From assembly GCF_947166265.1 (NCBI RefSeq), contig NZ_CAMVDO010000004.1, forward strand, positions 62,001 through 126,000: a stretch of 64,000 nucleotides of DNA, given 5' to 3'. The position numbers were made by a program, and so were the translations under genes. This DNA comes from an uncultured Fibrobacter sp. Lineage in GTDB: Bacteria > Fibrobacterota > Fibrobacteria > Fibrobacterales > Fibrobacteraceae. The notes under the pieces are model-generated. The model was given only the letters and a program-made list of their open reading frames with translations. It was not told where the DNA came from and searched no databases. Positions 3,544 to 55,167 of the stretch are shown here, piece after piece (positions within the stretch are counted from its first letter, which is position 1; each line of letters opens with the position of its first letter).

Positions 3544-6252
3544 CTAATCCTTTACGCAACGAATACTGTTATAATCTGTTGTTGTGGTATTGTATACACC
3601 AGGGCCCTCATAGCAATCCATACACCAAAAGCAAACCTTGAGTATATCCGTTTCACGTTGAGAAGAAGTCAAGAATTGAAGACCAGCACCACGAATTTCC
3701 TCACCATTCACATAATAAACAATACTAGGCAAAACAGAGAATCCGTAAGCATCTGTCGCATCAGTCCAATAGGCAGTCCCCTTAATCTTCATTGCGCCAA
3801 CCGATTTACCAACAGATTCAAACAATTCCTGCCATTCCGAAGAATCCGGCAAATGCCAACCCTCGGGGCAAACGCCTCTTACAGGATACTGTAGCGAGCA
3901 GGTCTTATCAGTGCCACAACCTTTACCTCCCGCCGAATAAATTCCCGCGCTATCCATAGCGGCAGCCCAAGTGTAATAACGACCATATCGCGAACAGTCT
4001 TCCGAATTATCCTTACAAACACGACCATACCTTTCTGTTTCGGAAAAATCAAAATTACAAACATTACCATAAGATTTGTCATCCACTTTATAATCGAAAT
4101 TCAGGTTTTCCGCCATCCAGACTTGGGTTCCAATTTTTATGGTATAATAAGACTTTCCATCACGTTTATCTTTCAAAACTCCAAACTTAGAGGTATCTCT
4201 TTTAATTAAGATATCTGGACTTATCGATCCATCGTTCTCGCATAGGTATCCATATTCTCCATATTCAGATTCATCCACTTTTTTTACCAACATGCCCCTA
4301 TTGTAAGACGTACAGCCCCAGCCATGTCGAATTTCGTCAGATGTAACCGCTCTGAACGTATCGGCATCACAGACATAACTCCAACCCGTTACAATACCAC
4401 TGAACGGAGCCCCATCCTTTGTACATTCCTTCTGGTAGGTATCTTTTTCGATTAAAGTCGCTTCACGCCAAGCTTTCTTACTCTTTTCGTAAATATAATA
4501 GGTGGTCGTATTCACTTGTCCCTTGCGGACTTCGCCATCAAACTCGCCTGCGCCCCAGGTCGCGGTATCTTTTTCAATACCAGTCGCAGCACGCCAACGG
4601 TACAGGCTTGCGTCATCACAGATAAAGCGGACTTTATCGCCCACACTGTTCACATCTGCATAGTTCTTGGCATAGTACCTCTTGGAATTCTTATTCGATA
4701 CGTTTTTCACCGTTCCCACCTTATTTTTGCCCTCACCACAAATACCTAAGCCAAGTTCCTTACTCCAGAACCTGCGGACAAATTTTTCGAAGTCGGGAAC
4801 GTTTCCGCCACCAAGACCCCAGCCCTGAACATTCTTGCGGATTTTTGCAAGTTTACTCGCCGTATCCATTACCGTAGAATCCACAGTGGCGGCCCAGTCG
4901 GCGATTTCGGCCCTCTTCGCCGCATCGCCCCAAGTGCCATCTTCCGCAAAATCGTCGGCCATTTCCGTCAAGAGCACCGAAAGATCCGTTTCATCGCCAT
5001 CGCCCTGCAACAGAACCGAAATCGCGAGAAGAGCGGCATCGGCATCCGTCTTGCCGAATACGTCCAGGTCTTCAGATTCAGCCTTCATCGAACTCGCATC
5101 GATATAGAATGCATCGAGAATTTCAGCCTGGGCCTGCTTTTTCGCCGCCCTTACCGTTTTTTTCTCCTTCGTTACCAAATAATAGACGCGGTCTTTTTCA
5201 AGGTGCGTCAGCAGGTTCACGTTGGCAGACCTACGCATAAGCATATTGGTATAGGCCTGCAACTTGATCGCCGTCGTCGTTTTCTTGCCGGTCACCTCGT
5301 TGCGGTATTTACCGTCAGCCACCAGCAACGCGTACTGACTCACCAGATTACGCGAAGAAAACTTATAGCGACCATCGTCGTCCTTGATTTCACTCGTAAA
5401 GTTGCCGTTTGTCTGCTTCAAGGTGCGGCCATCAGAAAGCTCGTAAAGATAAACCGTAGAGCCTTTCAGGAACGGGCCCTTCTGCGAATAGCCCGCTAAG
5501 GAATCCAGCGAAATCGCCACCTTTTCAGAATCAAGCTCCAACGTGTCGATAGAGGTCGTATCGACAGTGGCCGTATCGACCGACGCACCACCCGTTCGCA
5601 GGTTCAAGGTCATCGATTTGTCGCCACACTTGATGGTAACCAAGGAATCTGTCTGAGCGGCAATCGAACAACCTACGCCGTTGTCACCTTTTTCGCCTTG
5701 TTTTCCGTCGGTTCCGTCCTTGCCGTCTTTACCGGCAGCACCATTTTCGCCGTCCTTACCAGCGGCACCGTTCAGCACCACGCCAATGGAATCTCCATTG
5801 CAGATAATCTTGAGGCCGCTCTTGTCCTTGAGTTCCTTAGTAGTGCAGCTGAAATCAGCAGAAGAAGTATCCTTCGCGATGGTTGCAAACCACTTGCCAT
5901 CTACGCAAATACGAGTTGCGCTTTCATCTTTCACCCACACCTGCTCCCCGGCATTTTCCTTGGTGCATTTGGGGAGATCCTTTACCGAGGAAACGATTTC
6001 GGTACCGCCAGTCGCCACCTCTACGATTTTTTCGGTGGTGGTATTTTCGCCGCAAGCCGTAAGGAGGATGGCAATAAGGATTGCTGCTAGAGATCCTTCG
6101 ACTACGTGCATCGCACTTCGCTCAGGATGACACATCTGTAAAAATTCCTTCAACGCACATCGGCCCTTCGACAGGCTCAGGGACCTTAATTGTATGGATT
6201 CCATCGCCTTACGGCTCCAGGATGACGAAACGGGGGATGAAAAATTTTTCAT
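3544..6252 (-). CDS. Lipoprotein with Fibrobacter major paralogous (FISUMP) domain, copy 1
   Basis: 902 residues from the ATG at 6252, which has AAGGTG 6 bases upstream and is the equivalent of the start in copy 2. Lipobox LLTAC puts the lipidated Cys at about residue 67. That is abnormally late because repeat-derived sequence (about residues 12-54) separates the Met-Lys start from the hydrophobic core. Then come a Cys-rich module, a collagen-like Gly-X-Y stretch (about 162-194), a long conserved middle region, a Cys-containing spacer and the C-terminal FISUMP domain (MAENLN, CPEGWHLP, terminal IRCVKD). Probably a surface lipoprotein; the FISUMP fold may be lectin-like (inference). It heads the operon containing rsgA. 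Confidence 0.88.
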   Translation of the reverse strand: MKNFSSPVSSSWSRKAMESIQLRSLSLSKGRCALKEFLQMCHPERSAMHVVEGSLAAILIAILLTACGENTTTEKIVEVATGGTEIVSSVKDLPKCTKENAGEQVWVKDESATRICVDGKWFATIAKDTSSADFSCTTKELKDKSGLKIICNGDSIGVVLNGAAGKDGENGAAGKDGKDGTDGKQGEKGDNGVGCSIAAQTDSLVTIKCGDKSMTLNLRTGGASVDTATVDTTSIDTLELDSEKVAISLDSLAGYSQKGPFLKGSTVYLYELSDGRTLKQTNGNFTSEIKDDDGRYKFSSRNLVSQYALLVADGKYRNEVTGKKTTTAIKLQAYTNMLMRRSANVNLLTHLEKDRVYYLVTKEKKTVRAAKKQAQAEILDAFYIDASSMKAESEDLDVFGKTDADAALLAISVLLQGDGDETDLSVLLTEMADDFAEDGTWGDAAKRAEIADWAATVDSTVMDTASKLAKIRKNVQGWGLGGGNVPDFEKFVRRFWSKELGLGICGEGKNKVGTVKNVSNKNSKRYYAKNYADVNSVGDKVRFICDDASLYRWRAATGIEKDTATWGAGEFDGEVRKGQVNTTTYYIYEKSKKAWREATLIEKDTYQKECTKDGAPFSGIVTGWSYVCDADTFRAVTSDEIRHGWGCTSYNRGMLVKKVDESEYGEYGYLCENDGSISPDILIKRDTSKFGVLKDKRDGKSYYTIKIGTQVWMAENLNFDYKVDDKSYGNVCNFDFSETERYGRVCKDNSEDCSRYGRYYTWAAAMDSAGIYSAGGKGCGTDKTCSLQYPVRGVCPEGWHLPDSSEWQELFESVGKSVGAMKIKGTAYWTDATDAYGFSVLPSIVYYVNGEEIRGAGLQFLTSSQRETDILKVCFWCMDCYEGPGVYNTTTTDYNSIRCVKD
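6090..6228 (-). repeat. Mosaic of dispersed repeats inside the signal-peptide region of FISUMP copy 1
   Basis: Read on the minus strand this contains TCATCCTGGAGCCGTAAGGC, AGGTCCCTGAGCCTGTCGAA and CATCCTGAGCGAAG...GAAGGATCT units. The same units are found between genes elsewhere in the window (for example 8751-8851, 39095-39167). It encodes about 43 residues between the start codon and the hydrophobic signal core. Confidence 0.8.
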
Positions 6253-6350: not shown

Positions 6351-8642
6351 TTAGTCCTGAAGGCAACGAACTGAATACCTAAAATTCTTGTTATAGTCAT
6401 TCAGGAAAGGCGTCTCATTTGAGTAGTACAAGTCCACACCAACACCATACCAACCGTCAGAACCATTACCCCTCGAAGCACTCCAGAAACGCGCATTTTC
6501 TTTTTCACCAAACGAATCCTTGCCGGTCATATAACCCACAGGGAGTGCGGTAAAGCCAAATTCATCCTTGCCGTTAATATCCCCATACCAGCCTGTCTGC
6601 GACTTAAGAAGATCACCAGCAATCAATCGTTCACCGACGGCATCGAACAAAGTTTCCCATTCCGCTTTACTCGGCAAATGCCAACCTTCGGGACATACAC
6701 CGCGAACCGTGTCAGGCAATTCGCAAGTCTTACCGTAGCCACATTCGCCTTCGGTCTTGCCTACCGCCGCAGCCCAGGTATAGAGCCTTCCGTACTTCGC
6801 ACAATTATCCGCTAGGTTATCGAAGCAGACACTTTGCCCCTCAACTTCATAGTTCAAGTTTTCCGCCATCCAAACCTGATTTCCGATCGTTATTGTTCTG
6901 TATTCAACTCCAGCCTTATCCTTCATTGAACCCGAACTGCCCTTAATGTCAAACTTCCATTTTCCTGCGGTGCACTTATAATGCGACAACTGACCGTCAA
7001 GAACAATGCTACTATCATTCAAGTAATTAACGCAGCCCCGATTCCAACCAATCTCCGTACTATTCGCATACCGAAGCGTATCTTTATCAAACACCATTTT
7101 TTTTCCTGTAAACGGTCCATCAAGAAGTTCCCCCATTTTTGTATTCTTCGGGTTCCAATTGAACCGATCTTTTTCTAAATCCGTCGCGGCACGCCACCGG
7201 TACAGGCTAGCATCATCACAAATAAAGCGGACTTTATTGCCAGCACCATTTTCATTGAAGTATTTTTCGGCATAGAATTTCTGGGAATTGGTATTCGATA
7301 CATTCTTCACCGTTCCCACCTTATTTTCGCCCTCGCCACAAACGCCAAGGCCAAGTTCTTTACTCCAGAATTTGCGGATAAATTTTTCGAAGTCGGGAAC
7401 ATTACCGCCACCGAGGCCCCAGCCCTGAACATTCTTGCGAATTTTTACAAGTTTGCTTGCCGTATCCATTACCGTAGAATCCACAGAGGCGGCCCAATCG
7501 GCAATTTCAGCCCTTTTCGCTGCATTACCCCAATCGCCATCTTCAGCCAAATCGTCAGCCATTTCCGTCAAAAGCACCGAAAGATCCGTTTCATCGCCCT
7601 TACCCTGCAATAGAACCGAAATTGCGAGAAGAGCGGCATCGGCATCTGTCTTGCCGAACACGTCTAAGTATTCGGATTCAGCCTTCATCGAACTCGCATC
7701 GATGTGGAAGGCCGCTAGAATTTCAGCCTGAGCCTGCTTTTTAGCAGCCCGCACTGTTTTCTTTTCTTGCGTCACTAAGTAAAATACACGGTCCTTTTCA
7801 AGGTGCGTCAGCAAATTCACGTTTGCAGACCTGCGCGAAAGCATATTAGTATAGGCTTGCAACTTAATTGCCGTGTTCGTCGGCTTCCCCGTCACCTCGT
7901 TGTGGTACTTGCCATCGGCAACCAGCAACGCGTACTGGCTCACCAGATTACGCGAGGTAAACTTGTAACGACCATCGTCGTCCTTGATTTCACTCGTAAA
8001 GTTACCATTCGTCTGCTTGAGCGTACGGCCATCAGAAAGCTCGTAAAGATAAACCGTAGAGCCTTTCAGGAACGGGCCCTTCTGCGAATAGCCCGAGAGC
8101 GAATCTAGCGAAATCGCCACCTTTTCAGAATCCAGGTCCAACGTGTCGACAGAGGTCGTATCGACAGTCACTCCGTTCGCACGAAGATTCAAAGTCATCG
8201 ACTTGTCGCCACACTTGATCATAACCAAGGAATCCGTCTGAGCGGCAATCGAGCAACCTACGCCGTTGTCACCTTTTTCGCCGTCCTTACCGGCGGAACC
8301 GTTCAGCACCACACCGATGGAATCACCGTTGCAGACAATCTTGAGGCCGCTCTTGTCCTTGAGTTCCTTGGTCGTGCAGCTGAAATCGGCGGATGAATCC
8401 TTCGCGACCGTTGCAAACCAATTGCCGTCTACGCAGACTCGGTCTGCAGATTCATCTTTGACCCAAACGCGTTCGCCCTGATTGTCCTTGGTGCATTTGG
8501 GGAGATCCTTGACAGACTCGACAATTTCCGTGCCGCCGACCGCCACTTCCACGATTTTTTCGGTGGTGGTGGATTCGCCGCAAGCTGAAAACAGGACAAG
8601 AGACGAAATAATAGAGATGAGAGGTATGGAGATTTTTTTCAT
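6351..8642 (-). CDS. Lipoprotein with FISUMP domain, copy 2
   Basis: 763 residues from the ATG at 8642 (AAGGTG 6 bases upstream; the open frame extends only to a GTG 9 bases earlier). It has a normal lipoprotein signal peptide with the Cys at residue 21 (LVLFSAC), unlike copies 1 and 3. The N-terminal 450 or so residues are nearly identical to copy 1, but the collagen-like stretch is shorter (GSAGKDGEKGDNGVGC). The C-terminal 250 residues diverge and end in a FISUMP domain with CPEGWHLPSKAEW and a terminal RCLQD. Tandem duplicate of copy 1, with its own copy of the promoter and leader. Confidence 0.9.
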   Translation of the reverse strand: MKKISIPLISIISSLVLFSACGESTTTEKIVEVAVGGTEIVESVKDLPKCTKDNQGERVWVKDESADRVCVDGNWFATVAKDSSADFSCTTKELKDKSGLKIVCNGDSIGVVLNGSAGKDGEKGDNGVGCSIAAQTDSLVMIKCGDKSMTLNLRANGVTVDTTSVDTLDLDSEKVAISLDSLSGYSQKGPFLKGSTVYLYELSDGRTLKQTNGNFTSEIKDDDGRYKFTSRNLVSQYALLVADGKYHNEVTGKPTNTAIKLQAYTNMLSRRSANVNLLTHLEKDRVFYLVTQEKKTVRAAKKQAQAEILAAFHIDASSMKAESEYLDVFGKTDADAALLAISVLLQGKGDETDLSVLLTEMADDLAEDGDWGNAAKRAEIADWAASVDSTVMDTASKLVKIRKNVQGWGLGGGNVPDFEKFIRKFWSKELGLGVCGEGENKVGTVKNVSNTNSQKFYAEKYFNENGAGNKVRFICDDASLYRWRAATDLEKDRFNWNPKNTKMGELLDGPFTGKKMVFDKDTLRYANSTEIGWNRGCVNYLNDSSIVLDGQLSHYKCTAGKWKFDIKGSSGSMKDKAGVEYRTITIGNQVWMAENLNYEVEGQSVCFDNLADNCAKYGRLYTWAAAVGKTEGECGYGKTCELPDTVRGVCPEGWHLPSKAEWETLFDAVGERLIAGDLLKSQTGWYGDINGKDEFGFTALPVGYMTGKDSFGEKENARFWSASRGNGSDGWYGVGVDLYYSNETPFLNDYNKNFRYSVRCLQD

Positions 8643-8701: not shown

Positions 8702-8729
8702 GGGAGATGCCCGCCTCCGCGGGCATGAC
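8702..8729. repeat. Palindromic repeat, family A
   Basis: Same GGGAGATGCCCGC...GCGGGCATGAC palindrome as at 6313, again 2 bases upstream of the -35 box of a FISUMP gene. Confidence 0.85.
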
Positions 8730-22419: not shown

Positions 22420-23275
22420 AATTACCATTCAGGATTTTACAGGCGTTTACGCAGAGCAGCCCTTTATGCAGGGGCTGCGAAAAGCTGCCTCAACTGACGG
22501 CGAAATCCGCTGGTTTGACTGTACCCGAATTGACGGTACCGACTGCTACTGCGATGACGAAGCGCAGGCAATTCTCCGAGAGCAAATTGAATTCTACAAA
22601 ACACCGGCCCTTCGACAGGCTCAGGGACCTAGTTCAATAAGTACGCCGGGCATTCATTTTTTTGACAACGGCAATTACCACTACATGAGCAAACTCTGGA
22701 CGGATTCAATCCGCGAGCCGTTTGACCTTGTGGTTTTTGACCACCACCCCGATATGCAGCCGCCAAGATTCGAAGGAATCCTAAGCTGCGGAGGATGGAT
22801 CAAGGAAGTCCTGGAACACAACAGATTCGTACAAAATGTTGTCGTCATCGGAGTAGCCGACCACCTTATTGAAGAAATCCAACAAGACCTATCCCAGGCA
22901 AACGCCGCCGAAATTTTGAACCGCGTCACCTTTATCCGCGAAAGTGAGCTGAAGAACCTTCAAGACAATCTTTCGTCTTTCGTCTGTAGCGAGCATGCGA
23001 GCGTTCTCTCGTCTAACCTCTATATTTCCATTGACAAGGACGCACTCAACACGCAGGAGGCCGCCACCAACTGGGATCAGGGTTCGCTGACATTTGAACA
23101 GTTGGCCGAAGCACTCCAGGCACTCGCCCGCAACCGCAAAATTCTAGGCGTAGACATCTGTGGAGAACGCTCCCGCGACATGGGATTCGAAGACACCGCC
23201 GCGGCAGACGCGCTGAACAATGCTCTAAACAAGAAACTTTTTCACTTGCTCACGGGGCTCCATGGCATTCAATAA
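22406..23275 (+). CDS. Arginase/agmatinase-family ureohydrolase
   Basis: Start set at the GTG at 22406, overlapping the end of the lipoprotein gene; 289 residues. The two metal-binding motifs of the family are present, DHHPD at 112-116 and SIDKD at 208-212, so a dinuclear Mn2+ centre is likely. The amidine substrate is not identifiable. Two repeat elements are read in frame: about residues 67-75 (ALRQAQGPSS) and about 187-204 (SSFVCSEHAS), the second directly before the SIDKD motif. The 3' end overlaps the next gene by 14 bases. Confidence 0.8.
   Translation: MKSTRITIQDFTGVYAEQPFMQGLRKAASTDGEIRWFDCTRIDGTDCYCDDEAQAILREQIEFYKTPALRQAQGPSSISTPGIHFFDNGNYHYMSKLWTDSIREPFDLVVFDHHPDMQPPRFEGILSCGGWIKEVLEHNRFVQNVVVIGVADHLIEEIQQDLSQANAAEILNRVTFIRESELKNLQDNLSSFVCSEHASVLSSNLYISIDKDALNTQEAATNWDQGSLTFEQLAEALQALARNRKILGVDICGERSRDMGFEDTAAADALNNALNKKLFHLLTGLHGIQ
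22606..22630 (+). repeat. Dispersed repeat, family B, inside the ureohydrolase gene
   Basis: GGCCCTTCGACAGGCTCAGG followed by GACCT, identical in core to the intergenic copies at 48388 and to part of 6162-6228. It is in frame and encodes PALRQAQGP. Confidence 0.8.
22965..23016 (-). repeat. Dispersed repeat, family D, inside the ureohydrolase gene
   Basis: Minus strand begins TTAGACGAGAGAACGC, then an inverted repeat around GCTCGCATGCTCGC, then TACAGACGAAAGACGAAAG. An intergenic relative of the same 52-base length lies at 31621-31672 with near-identical outer parts and a different hairpin centre. Confidence 0.75.
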
Positions 23276-52800: not shown

Positions 52801-55167
52801 TTAGTCCTTAAGGCAACGAACGGAGTTTCCATTGCTCTTACTGTATAGTCCCTGAATTCCAGCACTGTTCGCCCTTAATTGCCAGTAGCCGCCATAAGTT
52901 TCAGATTGCTGACCGAAGCACCAGAATTGAGCATATTGTCCCACAAGATTATATGTGCTAGAGTAAAAACGACCACCGGGAAGGGCTGAAAATCCATAAT
53001 CGTCCGTAGCATCAGTCCAACTTTCGAAACCTCTCGCCTGCATCGCTGAAGGACTTTCACCCATAACAGAATAAAGCGTTTTCCATTCTTCACCACTGGG
53101 CAAATGCCAGCCTTCAGGACAAACTCCACTACTCAAAATAACATTGTAGCAATTCTTACCATAGCCACACTCTTCCTCGGACTTACCATGAGCGGCGGCC
53201 CAAGTATAAAGTCTACCATACTTGGCACAGCTATCCGGTTCATTTTTGTAGCAGAAACTGTTTTCAACTTCGTAGTTCAGGTTTTCCGCCATCCAATACT
53301 GACCGCCAATCTTAATGGTGTTGTAAACTTGATTGTCACGCGGGTCCGTAATCACGTTCACAGAATCAAACTCCCATCCATCAGATGTGCAAGTATATGA
53401 TGAGTGTAAGCCCAAAGTGTCAGACGGACTCGACAAATAACTCACGCACCCTTTATTCAAATAAATTTCTAAACTATCCGCATACCGAAGCGTATCCGCA
53501 TCCCAAACCATTTTTCGTCTTGTAACCGGACCATCAAGAAGCGCACCCTTCTTTGTATTCTTCGGACTCCAACCAAACCGATCCTTTTCCAAATCAGTCG
53601 CCTTACGCCACCTAGCACTTTCGGCATCCACACAGATAAAGCGAACTTTTCTGCCTGCACTCGAAGTATCTTTATAAGACTGTGCATAATAGCTCGACCT
53701 TGAATTCGTAACCCGTTTTACAGTTCCCTCGGGAGCGCTATCACTGCCACACACGCCAAGGCCAAGTTCCTCGCTCCAGAACCGATGAACAAATTTTTCA
53801 AAGTCAGGAACGTCACCGAGTTTCCATTTTTCGACATGACTACGGATCTCAGCCAATTCACCAGCGTCATCCACCGTTGCGGCCCAGTCAGAGATTTCAG
53901 CCTTTTTCGAGGCATCATCCCAAGAGCCATCCTCTTCCAAATCGATAGACATTTCCGTCAACAGCACCGAAAGCGCCGTTTCGTTAAAAGAACGTTGCAA
54001 CAGAATCGAAATGGCAAGGAGTGCCGCATCGGCGTCCGACTTACCAAACACGTTGAGGTCTTCGGATTCCGTCTTGAAGTTGCTTGCATCGATGTGGAAC
54101 GCCGAAAGAATCTCAGCCTGAGCCTGTCTCTTAGCAGCCCGTACCGTTTTCTTTTCCTTCGTCACCAAGTAATACACGCGGTCCTTTTCAAGGTGTGTCA
54201 GCAGGTTAACGTTTGCGGACTTACGCATAAGCATATTGGTGTAGGCCTGCAACTTGATATTCGAATTCGTATTATTGCCAGTCACCTCGTTACGGTAGTT
54301 ACCTTCCACTTCGATCAGGGCATATTGGCTTACCAGATTACGCGAACTAAACTTGTAGCGTCCATCGTCCTTCTCTATGCGACTGGTAAAAGAGTTTCCC
54401 ATCTGCTTGAGGGTGCGGCCATCGGAAAGTTCATACAACAGAACCGAGGAGCCCTTCAGGAAAGGCCCCTTCTGCGAATAACCGGAAAGTGAATCCAGCG
54501 AAATCGCAATCTTTTCGGAGTCAAGTTCAAGAGAGTCTCCTGCTGTCGTATCGACCGAAGCTCCCCCGACCTTAAAATTCAGCGTCATCGTAGAATTGCC
54601 ACATTTGATGATGGCAGAAGAGTCCGTCTGATTGACTATCGAGCAACCGACACCATCCTTACCATTCTTTCCGTCTGCACCAGTATCGCCTTGGTCGCCC
54701 TTTGCTCCGTCCTTACCAGCGGCACCGTTCAGCACCACGCCGATGCTGTCGCCGTTACAGATAATCTTGAGGCCGCTCTTATCATTGAGTTCCTTGGTGG
54801 TGCAACTGAAATCGCCTCCATTCAAGTAAACCGTATCGCCCGCCACAAACACAGTATCCTTCGCGGATTCCTTCGTGGCAAACCACTTGCCGTCTACGCA
54901 GACTCGGTCGGCGGATTCGTCTTTGACCCAGACGCGTTCGCCCTGAGTGTCCTTAGTGCATTTGGGGAGGTCTTTAACCGAGGAAACGATTTCTGTGCCG
55001 CCGGTTGCCTCCTCTACGATTTTTTCGGTAGTGGTGTTTTCGCCGCAAGCCGTGAGGAAGATGGCAACGAGAAATGCTGCTAGAGATCCTTCGACGCAAC
55101 GGCCCTTCGGCAGGTTCAGGGACCTATAGTTCCAGGATGACATGGTGGGGAATAAACTTTTTTTCAT
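52801..55167 (-). CDS. Lipoprotein with FISUMP domain, copy 3
   Basis: 788 residues. Lipobox FLTAC with Cys 41; as in copy 1, repeat-derived residues (about 9-28, WNYRSLNLPKGRC) separate the MKK start from the hydrophobic core. The rest follows copies 1 and 2: Cys-rich module, collagen-like stretch with seven or so Gly-X-Y units (GKDGAKGDQGDTGADGKNG), long conserved region, variable spacer and a FISUMP domain with CPEGWHLPSGEEW and a terminal RCLKD. It lies 44 kb from its tandem relatives but keeps the same promoter and leader. Confidence 0.9.
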   Translation of the reverse strand: MKKSLFPTMSSWNYRSLNLPKGRCVEGSLAAFLVAIFLTACGENTTTEKIVEEATGGTEIVSSVKDLPKCTKDTQGERVWVKDESADRVCVDGKWFATKESAKDTVFVAGDTVYLNGGDFSCTTKELNDKSGLKIICNGDSIGVVLNGAAGKDGAKGDQGDTGADGKNGKDGVGCSIVNQTDSSAIIKCGNSTMTLNFKVGGASVDTTAGDSLELDSEKIAISLDSLSGYSQKGPFLKGSSVLLYELSDGRTLKQMGNSFTSRIEKDDGRYKFSSRNLVSQYALIEVEGNYRNEVTGNNTNSNIKLQAYTNMLMRKSANVNLLTHLEKDRVYYLVTKEKKTVRAAKRQAQAEILSAFHIDASNFKTESEDLNVFGKSDADAALLAISILLQRSFNETALSVLLTEMSIDLEEDGSWDDASKKAEISDWAATVDDAGELAEIRSHVEKWKLGDVPDFEKFVHRFWSEELGLGVCGSDSAPEGTVKRVTNSRSSYYAQSYKDTSSAGRKVRFICVDAESARWRKATDLEKDRFGWSPKNTKKGALLDGPVTRRKMVWDADTLRYADSLEIYLNKGCVSYLSSPSDTLGLHSSYTCTSDGWEFDSVNVITDPRDNQVYNTIKIGGQYWMAENLNYEVENSFCYKNEPDSCAKYGRLYTWAAAHGKSEEECGYGKNCYNVILSSGVCPEGWHLPSGEEWKTLYSVMGESPSAMQARGFESWTDATDDYGFSALPGGRFYSSTYNLVGQYAQFWCFGQQSETYGGYWQLRANSAGIQGLYSKSNGNSVRCLKD
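55083..55141 (-). repeat. Dispersed repeats inside the signal-peptide region of FISUMP copy 3
   Basis: Minus strand: TCATCCTGGAACTATAGGTC, CCTGAACCTGCCGAAGGGCC and GTCGAAGGATCTCTA. It encodes residues about 9-29 of the precursor. The arrangement differs from that in copy 1. Confidence 0.8.

Follow-up and report, generated by a model that had tools for sequence, protein, structure and literature searches.

FISUMP copy 1, a predicted lipoprotein gene in the window (the whole 64,000-nucleotide stretch of Fibrobacter DNA analysed here), appears to be one of several Fibrobacter lipoprotein genes in which the n-region of the signal peptide has been lengthened by dispersed palindromic repeats translated in frame, a reading to which we assign a probability of roughly three in four. 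The leader sequences, the identity of the repeats, the phase and openness of the frames that run through them, and the empty and differently filled sites in orthologs are all direct observations. The earlier note on this DNA had taken copy 1 for a single odd gene; the arrangement instead recurs within the same genome and has counterparts in further Fibrobacter genomes.

FISUMP copy 1 carries repeat units in its leader

Profile scans against Pfam and NCBIfam matched copy 1 to TIGR02145 (1.2e-41) and PF09603 (6.2e-21). The C-terminal Fib_succ_major domain scored 143.3 bits in copy 1 and 174.1 bits in copy 2, against a TIGR02145 membership cut-off of 41.65, so that both copies are clear members of the FISUMP family (Fib_succ_major, TIGR02145/PF09603). 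The domain of copy 1 is ordinary for this family, and its novelty lies in the leader. The relevant features of the window, all on the minus strand, are as follows.

3544..6252, minus: FISUMP copy 1, predicted lipoprotein of 902 aa (open reading frame; ATG at 6252-6250)
6055..6252, minus: copy 1 leader, 66 residues to the lipobox (LTA-C), from translation
6196..6225, minus: repeat unit D, TCATCCTGGAGCCGTAAGGCGATGGAATCC, read S-S-W-S-R-K-A-M-E-S; like units in the leaders of L061, L063 and L112 (genome G034)
6161..6189, minus: repeat unit A, TTAAGGTCCCTGAGCCTGTCGAAGGGCCG, read L-R-S-L-S-L-S-K-G-R
6133..6135, minus: ATG of codon 40 (MCHPERS), best-scoring internal start of copy 1
6087..6131, minus: repeat unit B/C, GTCATCCTGAGCGAAG...GTCGAAGGATCTCTAG, read C-H-P-E-R-S...V-E-G-S-L-A; repeat matches in window and genome
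6314..6340, minus: further palindrome (GTCATGCCCGCGGAGGCGGGCATCTCCC) upstream of the copy 1 start, also present at copy 2 (8703-8729)
6351..8642, minus: FISUMP copy 2, 20-residue leader without repeat (open reading frame, domain matches and translation)
52801..55167, minus: third FISUMP lipoprotein of the window (L065, at C4:117k), 40-residue leader MKKSLFPTMSSWNYRSLNLPKGRCVEGSLAAFLVAIFLTA-C with units D/A/C

Translation of copy 2 gave the leader MKKISIPLISIISSLVLFSA-C, the normal 20-residue lipoprotein signal that the earlier note had described. The promoter, ribosome-site and start region was likewise found to be common to the two genes, as had been proposed: they match over 113 nt at 88% (family D5), a stretch that takes in the upstream palindrome, an A+T-rich region, the ribosome-site region and ATGAAAAA. 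The copy 1 leader reads MKNFSSPVSSSWSRKAMESIQLRSLSLSKGRCALKEFLQMCHPERSAMHVVEGSLAAILIAILLTA-C, and three repeat units do lie between MKN and the hydrophobic core, although the excess over copy 2 amounts to 46 residues rather than the approximately 43 first reported. This length excess is real, but the proposal that an insertion can be seen by simple comparison of the two copies holds only in part: their hydrophobic cores also differ (AAILIAILLTA in copy 1, ISIISSLVLFSA in copy 2), so the copies do not form a clean filled/empty pair and were dropped as such.

Analysis of charge and hydropathy assigned to copy 1, counted from the upstream start, an n-region of 52 aa with a net charge of +4 and the h-region GSLAAILIAILLTA, followed by C. 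A basic n-region, a hydrophobic core and a lipobox before Cys, the sequence features of a bacterial lipoprotein (Sec/SPII), are thus present; the final 15 residues of the n-region carry a net charge of -1, which is not ideal.

The repeats are dispersed and most abundant in the source genome

Repeat matches within the copy 1 leader fall at 6225-6196, 6182-6164 and 6130-6090 on the minus strand, the second of which has five matches in the window against none expected from shuffles. The 181-base leader region has 55 matches in the 3.77 Mb genome, and the core of unit A (CCTGAGCNNGNCGAAG) is present in 121 copies, compared with 1 for the reversed control. Counts of this core across the 61 Fibrobacter genomes sampled range from 0 to 121; the source genome is the richest, followed by G006 (61), G079 (38) and G032 (30), with 25 or fewer in each of the rest. 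As a candidate mobiliser, RAYT was rejected: no intact copy was found in the draft genome (89 contigs), where the only trace was a Y1_Tnp fragment covering profile positions 63-121 in an 87-codon frame.

Repeat-bearing leaders recur among FISUMP paralogues

A search with the mature N-terminus retrieved many FISUMP paralogues from the genome, which holds 158 FISUMP-domain matches, many of them in tandem clusters (C18, C11, C4, C3, C9). In five further paralogues, units of the kinds found in copy 1 separate MKK from the hydrophobic core without breaking the frame, giving leaders of 40-88 residues: C4:52k (88 aa), C1:93k (64), C3:100k (54), L062 on C32 (49) and L065 at C4:117k (40). Hydrophobic cores and lipoboxes are intact in the repeat-bearing leaders, as judged by charge and hydropathy. 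The six open FISUMP leaders therefore have six lengths (40, 49, 54, 64, 66 and 88 aa), all in phase with both start and core, and the mature frames that follow are open for about 800-1070 codons each. By our own estimate the chance that five independent indel steps would all fall in phase is about 0.004, a figure that assumes independence where recombination among paralogues could copy phase. Five steps were used instead of six because the leader of the pair on contig C53 equals that of copy 1 in length.

This tandem pair (L063) keeps its repeat leader in phase, but a TGA lies in frame before the core with no good start after it, and the mature frames are long and open despite the stop. The C53 copies may be silent or donor copies. 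Ordinary short leaders are found at C15, C1:20k, C4:146k and in copy 2, and C4:163k, perhaps also C57, has a different repeat-like segment in its leader. The paralogue tree was poorly resolved, with no clustering of leader state, and was therefore dropped as a count of FISUMP insertion events; leaders and mature parts did not group together. A FISUMP-type leader with unit D is also present in L112 of the sister genome G034.

Filled, empty and differently filled sites occur in other lipoproteins

Two non-FISUMP lipoproteins of the source genome, L189 and L272, also carry a unit in the n-region, which in L272 is unit A. The leader of L189 is MNLFKKNNTRSLSLSKGLVAATMSSALMLAAC. Its ortholog L244 (genome G001), 95% identical and with a near-identical start region, has an empty site (MNLFKNQITIAAIASTMMLAAC), such that MNLFKKN-NTRSLSLSKG-LVAAT...LAAC in L189/L243 aligns with MNLFKNQITIAAI...LAAC in L244. 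In this alignment L189/L243 has an in-frame insertion relative to L244, and the two form a cleaner filled/empty pair than copies 1 and 2. At the place of the L189 insert, a more distant ortholog, L247 (G008, 73% identical), carries another repeat, GTCATTGCGAGCGTAGCGAAGCAATCTC (read NVIASVAKQS), and the related gene L256 (G021) has a similar insert in its leader. Taken together, the site states of L189, L244 and L247, with L256 and L272, indicate that insertion into n-regions is a repeated event drawing on at least two repeat families. A leader segment of L069 resembles the NVIASVAKQS type, and the leader of L248 (G019), MNMFNNKSKSCNFASIVKQSALAL, may represent a decayed NVIASVAKQS insert of the kind found in L247.

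Unit A also lies within other coding-like regions

Inspection of 101 distinct unit A sites placed 34 in open reading frames with coding-like codon usage, as assessed by a simple score of our own. About 20 copies remained in coding-like frames once leaders and doubtful extensions were removed; L203, L219 and the first site of L230 were left out of the coding count as, in our judgement, apparent upstream extensions. The copies outside leaders use four or more frames of unit A (VPEPVEG, LRQAQG, PSASSG and SLSLPKG). Unit A lies in frame in genes with strong Pfam domains, including DNA polymerase A (polA), FeoB (feoB) and BioW (bioW), and further Pfam-matched frames encode an FAD-binding enzyme, a homocysteine S-methyltransferase (homocysteine methyltransferase) and a uroporphyrinogen-III synthase. 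The loop that holds the BioW insert is a short one in most orthologs; the inserted peptide (KESSLSVPKGT) is shared with G006 and absent from other species; this sharing suggests an inherited and translated insertion.

Three individual sites were also recorded. In L199 (G000:C5:126485-129085), a reverse unit A lies in the linker between exonuclease domains of the DNA polymerase A gene (GPSASSGT). L195 (G000:C4:132602-137556), a 926-codon frame, contains unit A twice, with RQAHQP in front of each copy; this RQAHQP segment looks like a further linked repeat unit (ACAAGCTCACCAACC). Within the window, an exact unit A at 22608-22626 falls inside a plus-strand 317-codon frame (LRQAQGP), a possible in-gene copy near a FISUMP domain.

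Every leader copy of unit A is read in the basic frame RSLSLxKG, compared with, by our tally, 3 of the roughly 20 non-leader coding copies. With three gene families counted, this small sample gave a Fisher p of 0.011. N-regions also appear to be over-represented as insertion sites relative to the fraction of coding sequence that they make up, with p of about 0.0015 if that fraction is 1% and 0.01 if it is 2%, both rough values resting on a fraction that we assumed.

Translation start and alternative explanations

The earlier note had offered two possibilities for copy 1, a functional 66-residue signal or a translational restart within the repeat, and the first is the better supported. In L062 and L065 there is no ATG, GTG or TTG between unit A and the hydrophobic core; the only candidate start in L272 lies inside unit A itself, and the only ones in L189 lie within the hydrophobic core. 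Any translation of these four genes must therefore include the repeat. Since leaders of variable length stay in phase and three have no start between repeat and core, the shared upstream ATG is the most likely start for translation through the repeats. A restart in copy 1, at codon 40 (MCHPERSAMHVVEGSLAAILIAILLTAC) or 48, would leave an effective signal of 19-27 residues and turn the rest into untranslated leader. It finds support in the GAAGGA about 10 nt upstream of the codon-40 ATG, where the Shine-Dalgarno-like duplex is predicted at -5.7 kcal/mol compared with -3.9 kcal/mol at the annotated upstream start. However, only copy 1 has these internal ATGs, the paralogues having non-start codons at these positions; all paralogues stay in phase with the upstream start; and a start at codon 40 or 48 would give an acidic or neutral n-region. 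A restart, best placed at codon 40, is thus possible in copy 1 but not conserved, and we consider it quite unlikely. The Met before HVVEG, named earlier as an example of such a start, scores lowest for its ribosome site among the internal starts of copy 1 and is not conserved in paralogues.

Repeat leaders might instead mark decaying or silent copies, such as donor cassettes that recombine with expressed FISUMP genes, with the open frames being residual. The large number of FISUMP-domain matches, the separate grouping of leaders and mature parts, and the C53 pair, in which a leader stop precedes a long open mature frame, are consistent with such copies; judging by this pair, some repeat leaders are likely broken and the genes behind them unexpressed, and copy 1 too could be a silent gene. 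Against this as a general account stand the six open leaders, which differ in length but remain in phase and lead into long open frames, the start region that copy 1 has in common with copy 2, and the same kind of insert in L189 and L272, and we regard it as distinctly improbable. That the inserts act at the RNA level, as a structured 5' coding region tuning translation with the peptide incidental, is highly improbable. The repeats are partly palindromic units, but the copy 1 start region plus insert folds no better than shuffled sequence (z +1.5), an Rfam search gave no match, and lengths and units differ between genes.

Discussion

Our preferred reading is in-frame translation of the repeats as part of the signal peptide. 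We infer from the sequences that translation and export do occur, that tolerance is the reason the inserts persist, and that leaders are reshuffled. Translation would begin at the shared upstream ATG (MKN/MKK), and the repeat DNA would be read as a net basic n-region followed by an ordinary hydrophobic core and lipobox. Because these ordinary elements follow the repeat n-region, export and lipid attachment should still work with a long leader. Cleavage of the signal peptide would take the long n-region with it, so that the mature protein would be unchanged. Inserts would persist because the n-region tolerates extra length as long as the frame is open, and those that bring stops probably kill the gene, as on contig C53. 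Duplication or recombination of FISUMP paralogues would spread the leaders and reshuffle them; recombination between the repeats is a plausible route of leader swapping. In our view the n-region is a permissive part of the signal, and the repeats ride along in it as tolerated passengers. A more far-reaching proposal, which we regard as rather unlikely, is that mobile palindromic repeats are a recurrent source of new n-regions: different families would repeatedly enter the same place in lipoprotein signals, the basic frame would be selected, and paralogue-specific long n-regions would change the targeting or timing of export for a very large family of surface proteins.

Palindromic repeats that are translated are known above all from Rickettsia. 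The Rickettsia palindromic elements (RPEs) are short dispersed palindromic repeats that lie in frame in many unrelated genes and are read as extra peptide (PMC10969869). The Fibrobacter repeats resemble them in behaviour: they lie in frame in genes of unrelated function, are absent from some orthologs and are probably translated. RPEs measure about 150 bp and form Rickettsia families, whereas the Fibrobacter units measure about 25-45 bp, unit A occurs in no fewer than four reading frames, and the n-regions of lipoprotein signals are a recurrent site of the units. REPs inside genes have also been reported, in a paper that does not mention Fibrobacter (PMC3733652). The likeness to REP/REPIN elements with RAYT lies in short, dispersed, palindromic repeats found within genes; the difference is that this genome has a partial Y1_Tnp match and no intact RAYT. 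The extended signals of autotransporters and two-partner secretion proteins share a common domain organisation within their protein class and have a long extra N-terminal part (PMC2805444), as in copy 1, before an ordinary signal core. In contrast, the Fibrobacter extension is repeat-derived, variable in length and found in lipoproteins, and Pfam and NCBIfam scans of copies 1 and 2 found no autotransporter or two-partner secretion domain. The openly available literature that was searched contains no description of the repeat strings, which is weak evidence of novelty; nor did it yield a description of recurrent repeat siting in lipoprotein n-regions.

For annotation, these leaders carry a warning that the start sites of repeat-bearing genes may be mis-called. 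With filled, empty and differently filled sites and several paralogues at hand, the tolerance of the Sec/lipoprotein signal to large natural n-region insertions becomes directly testable.
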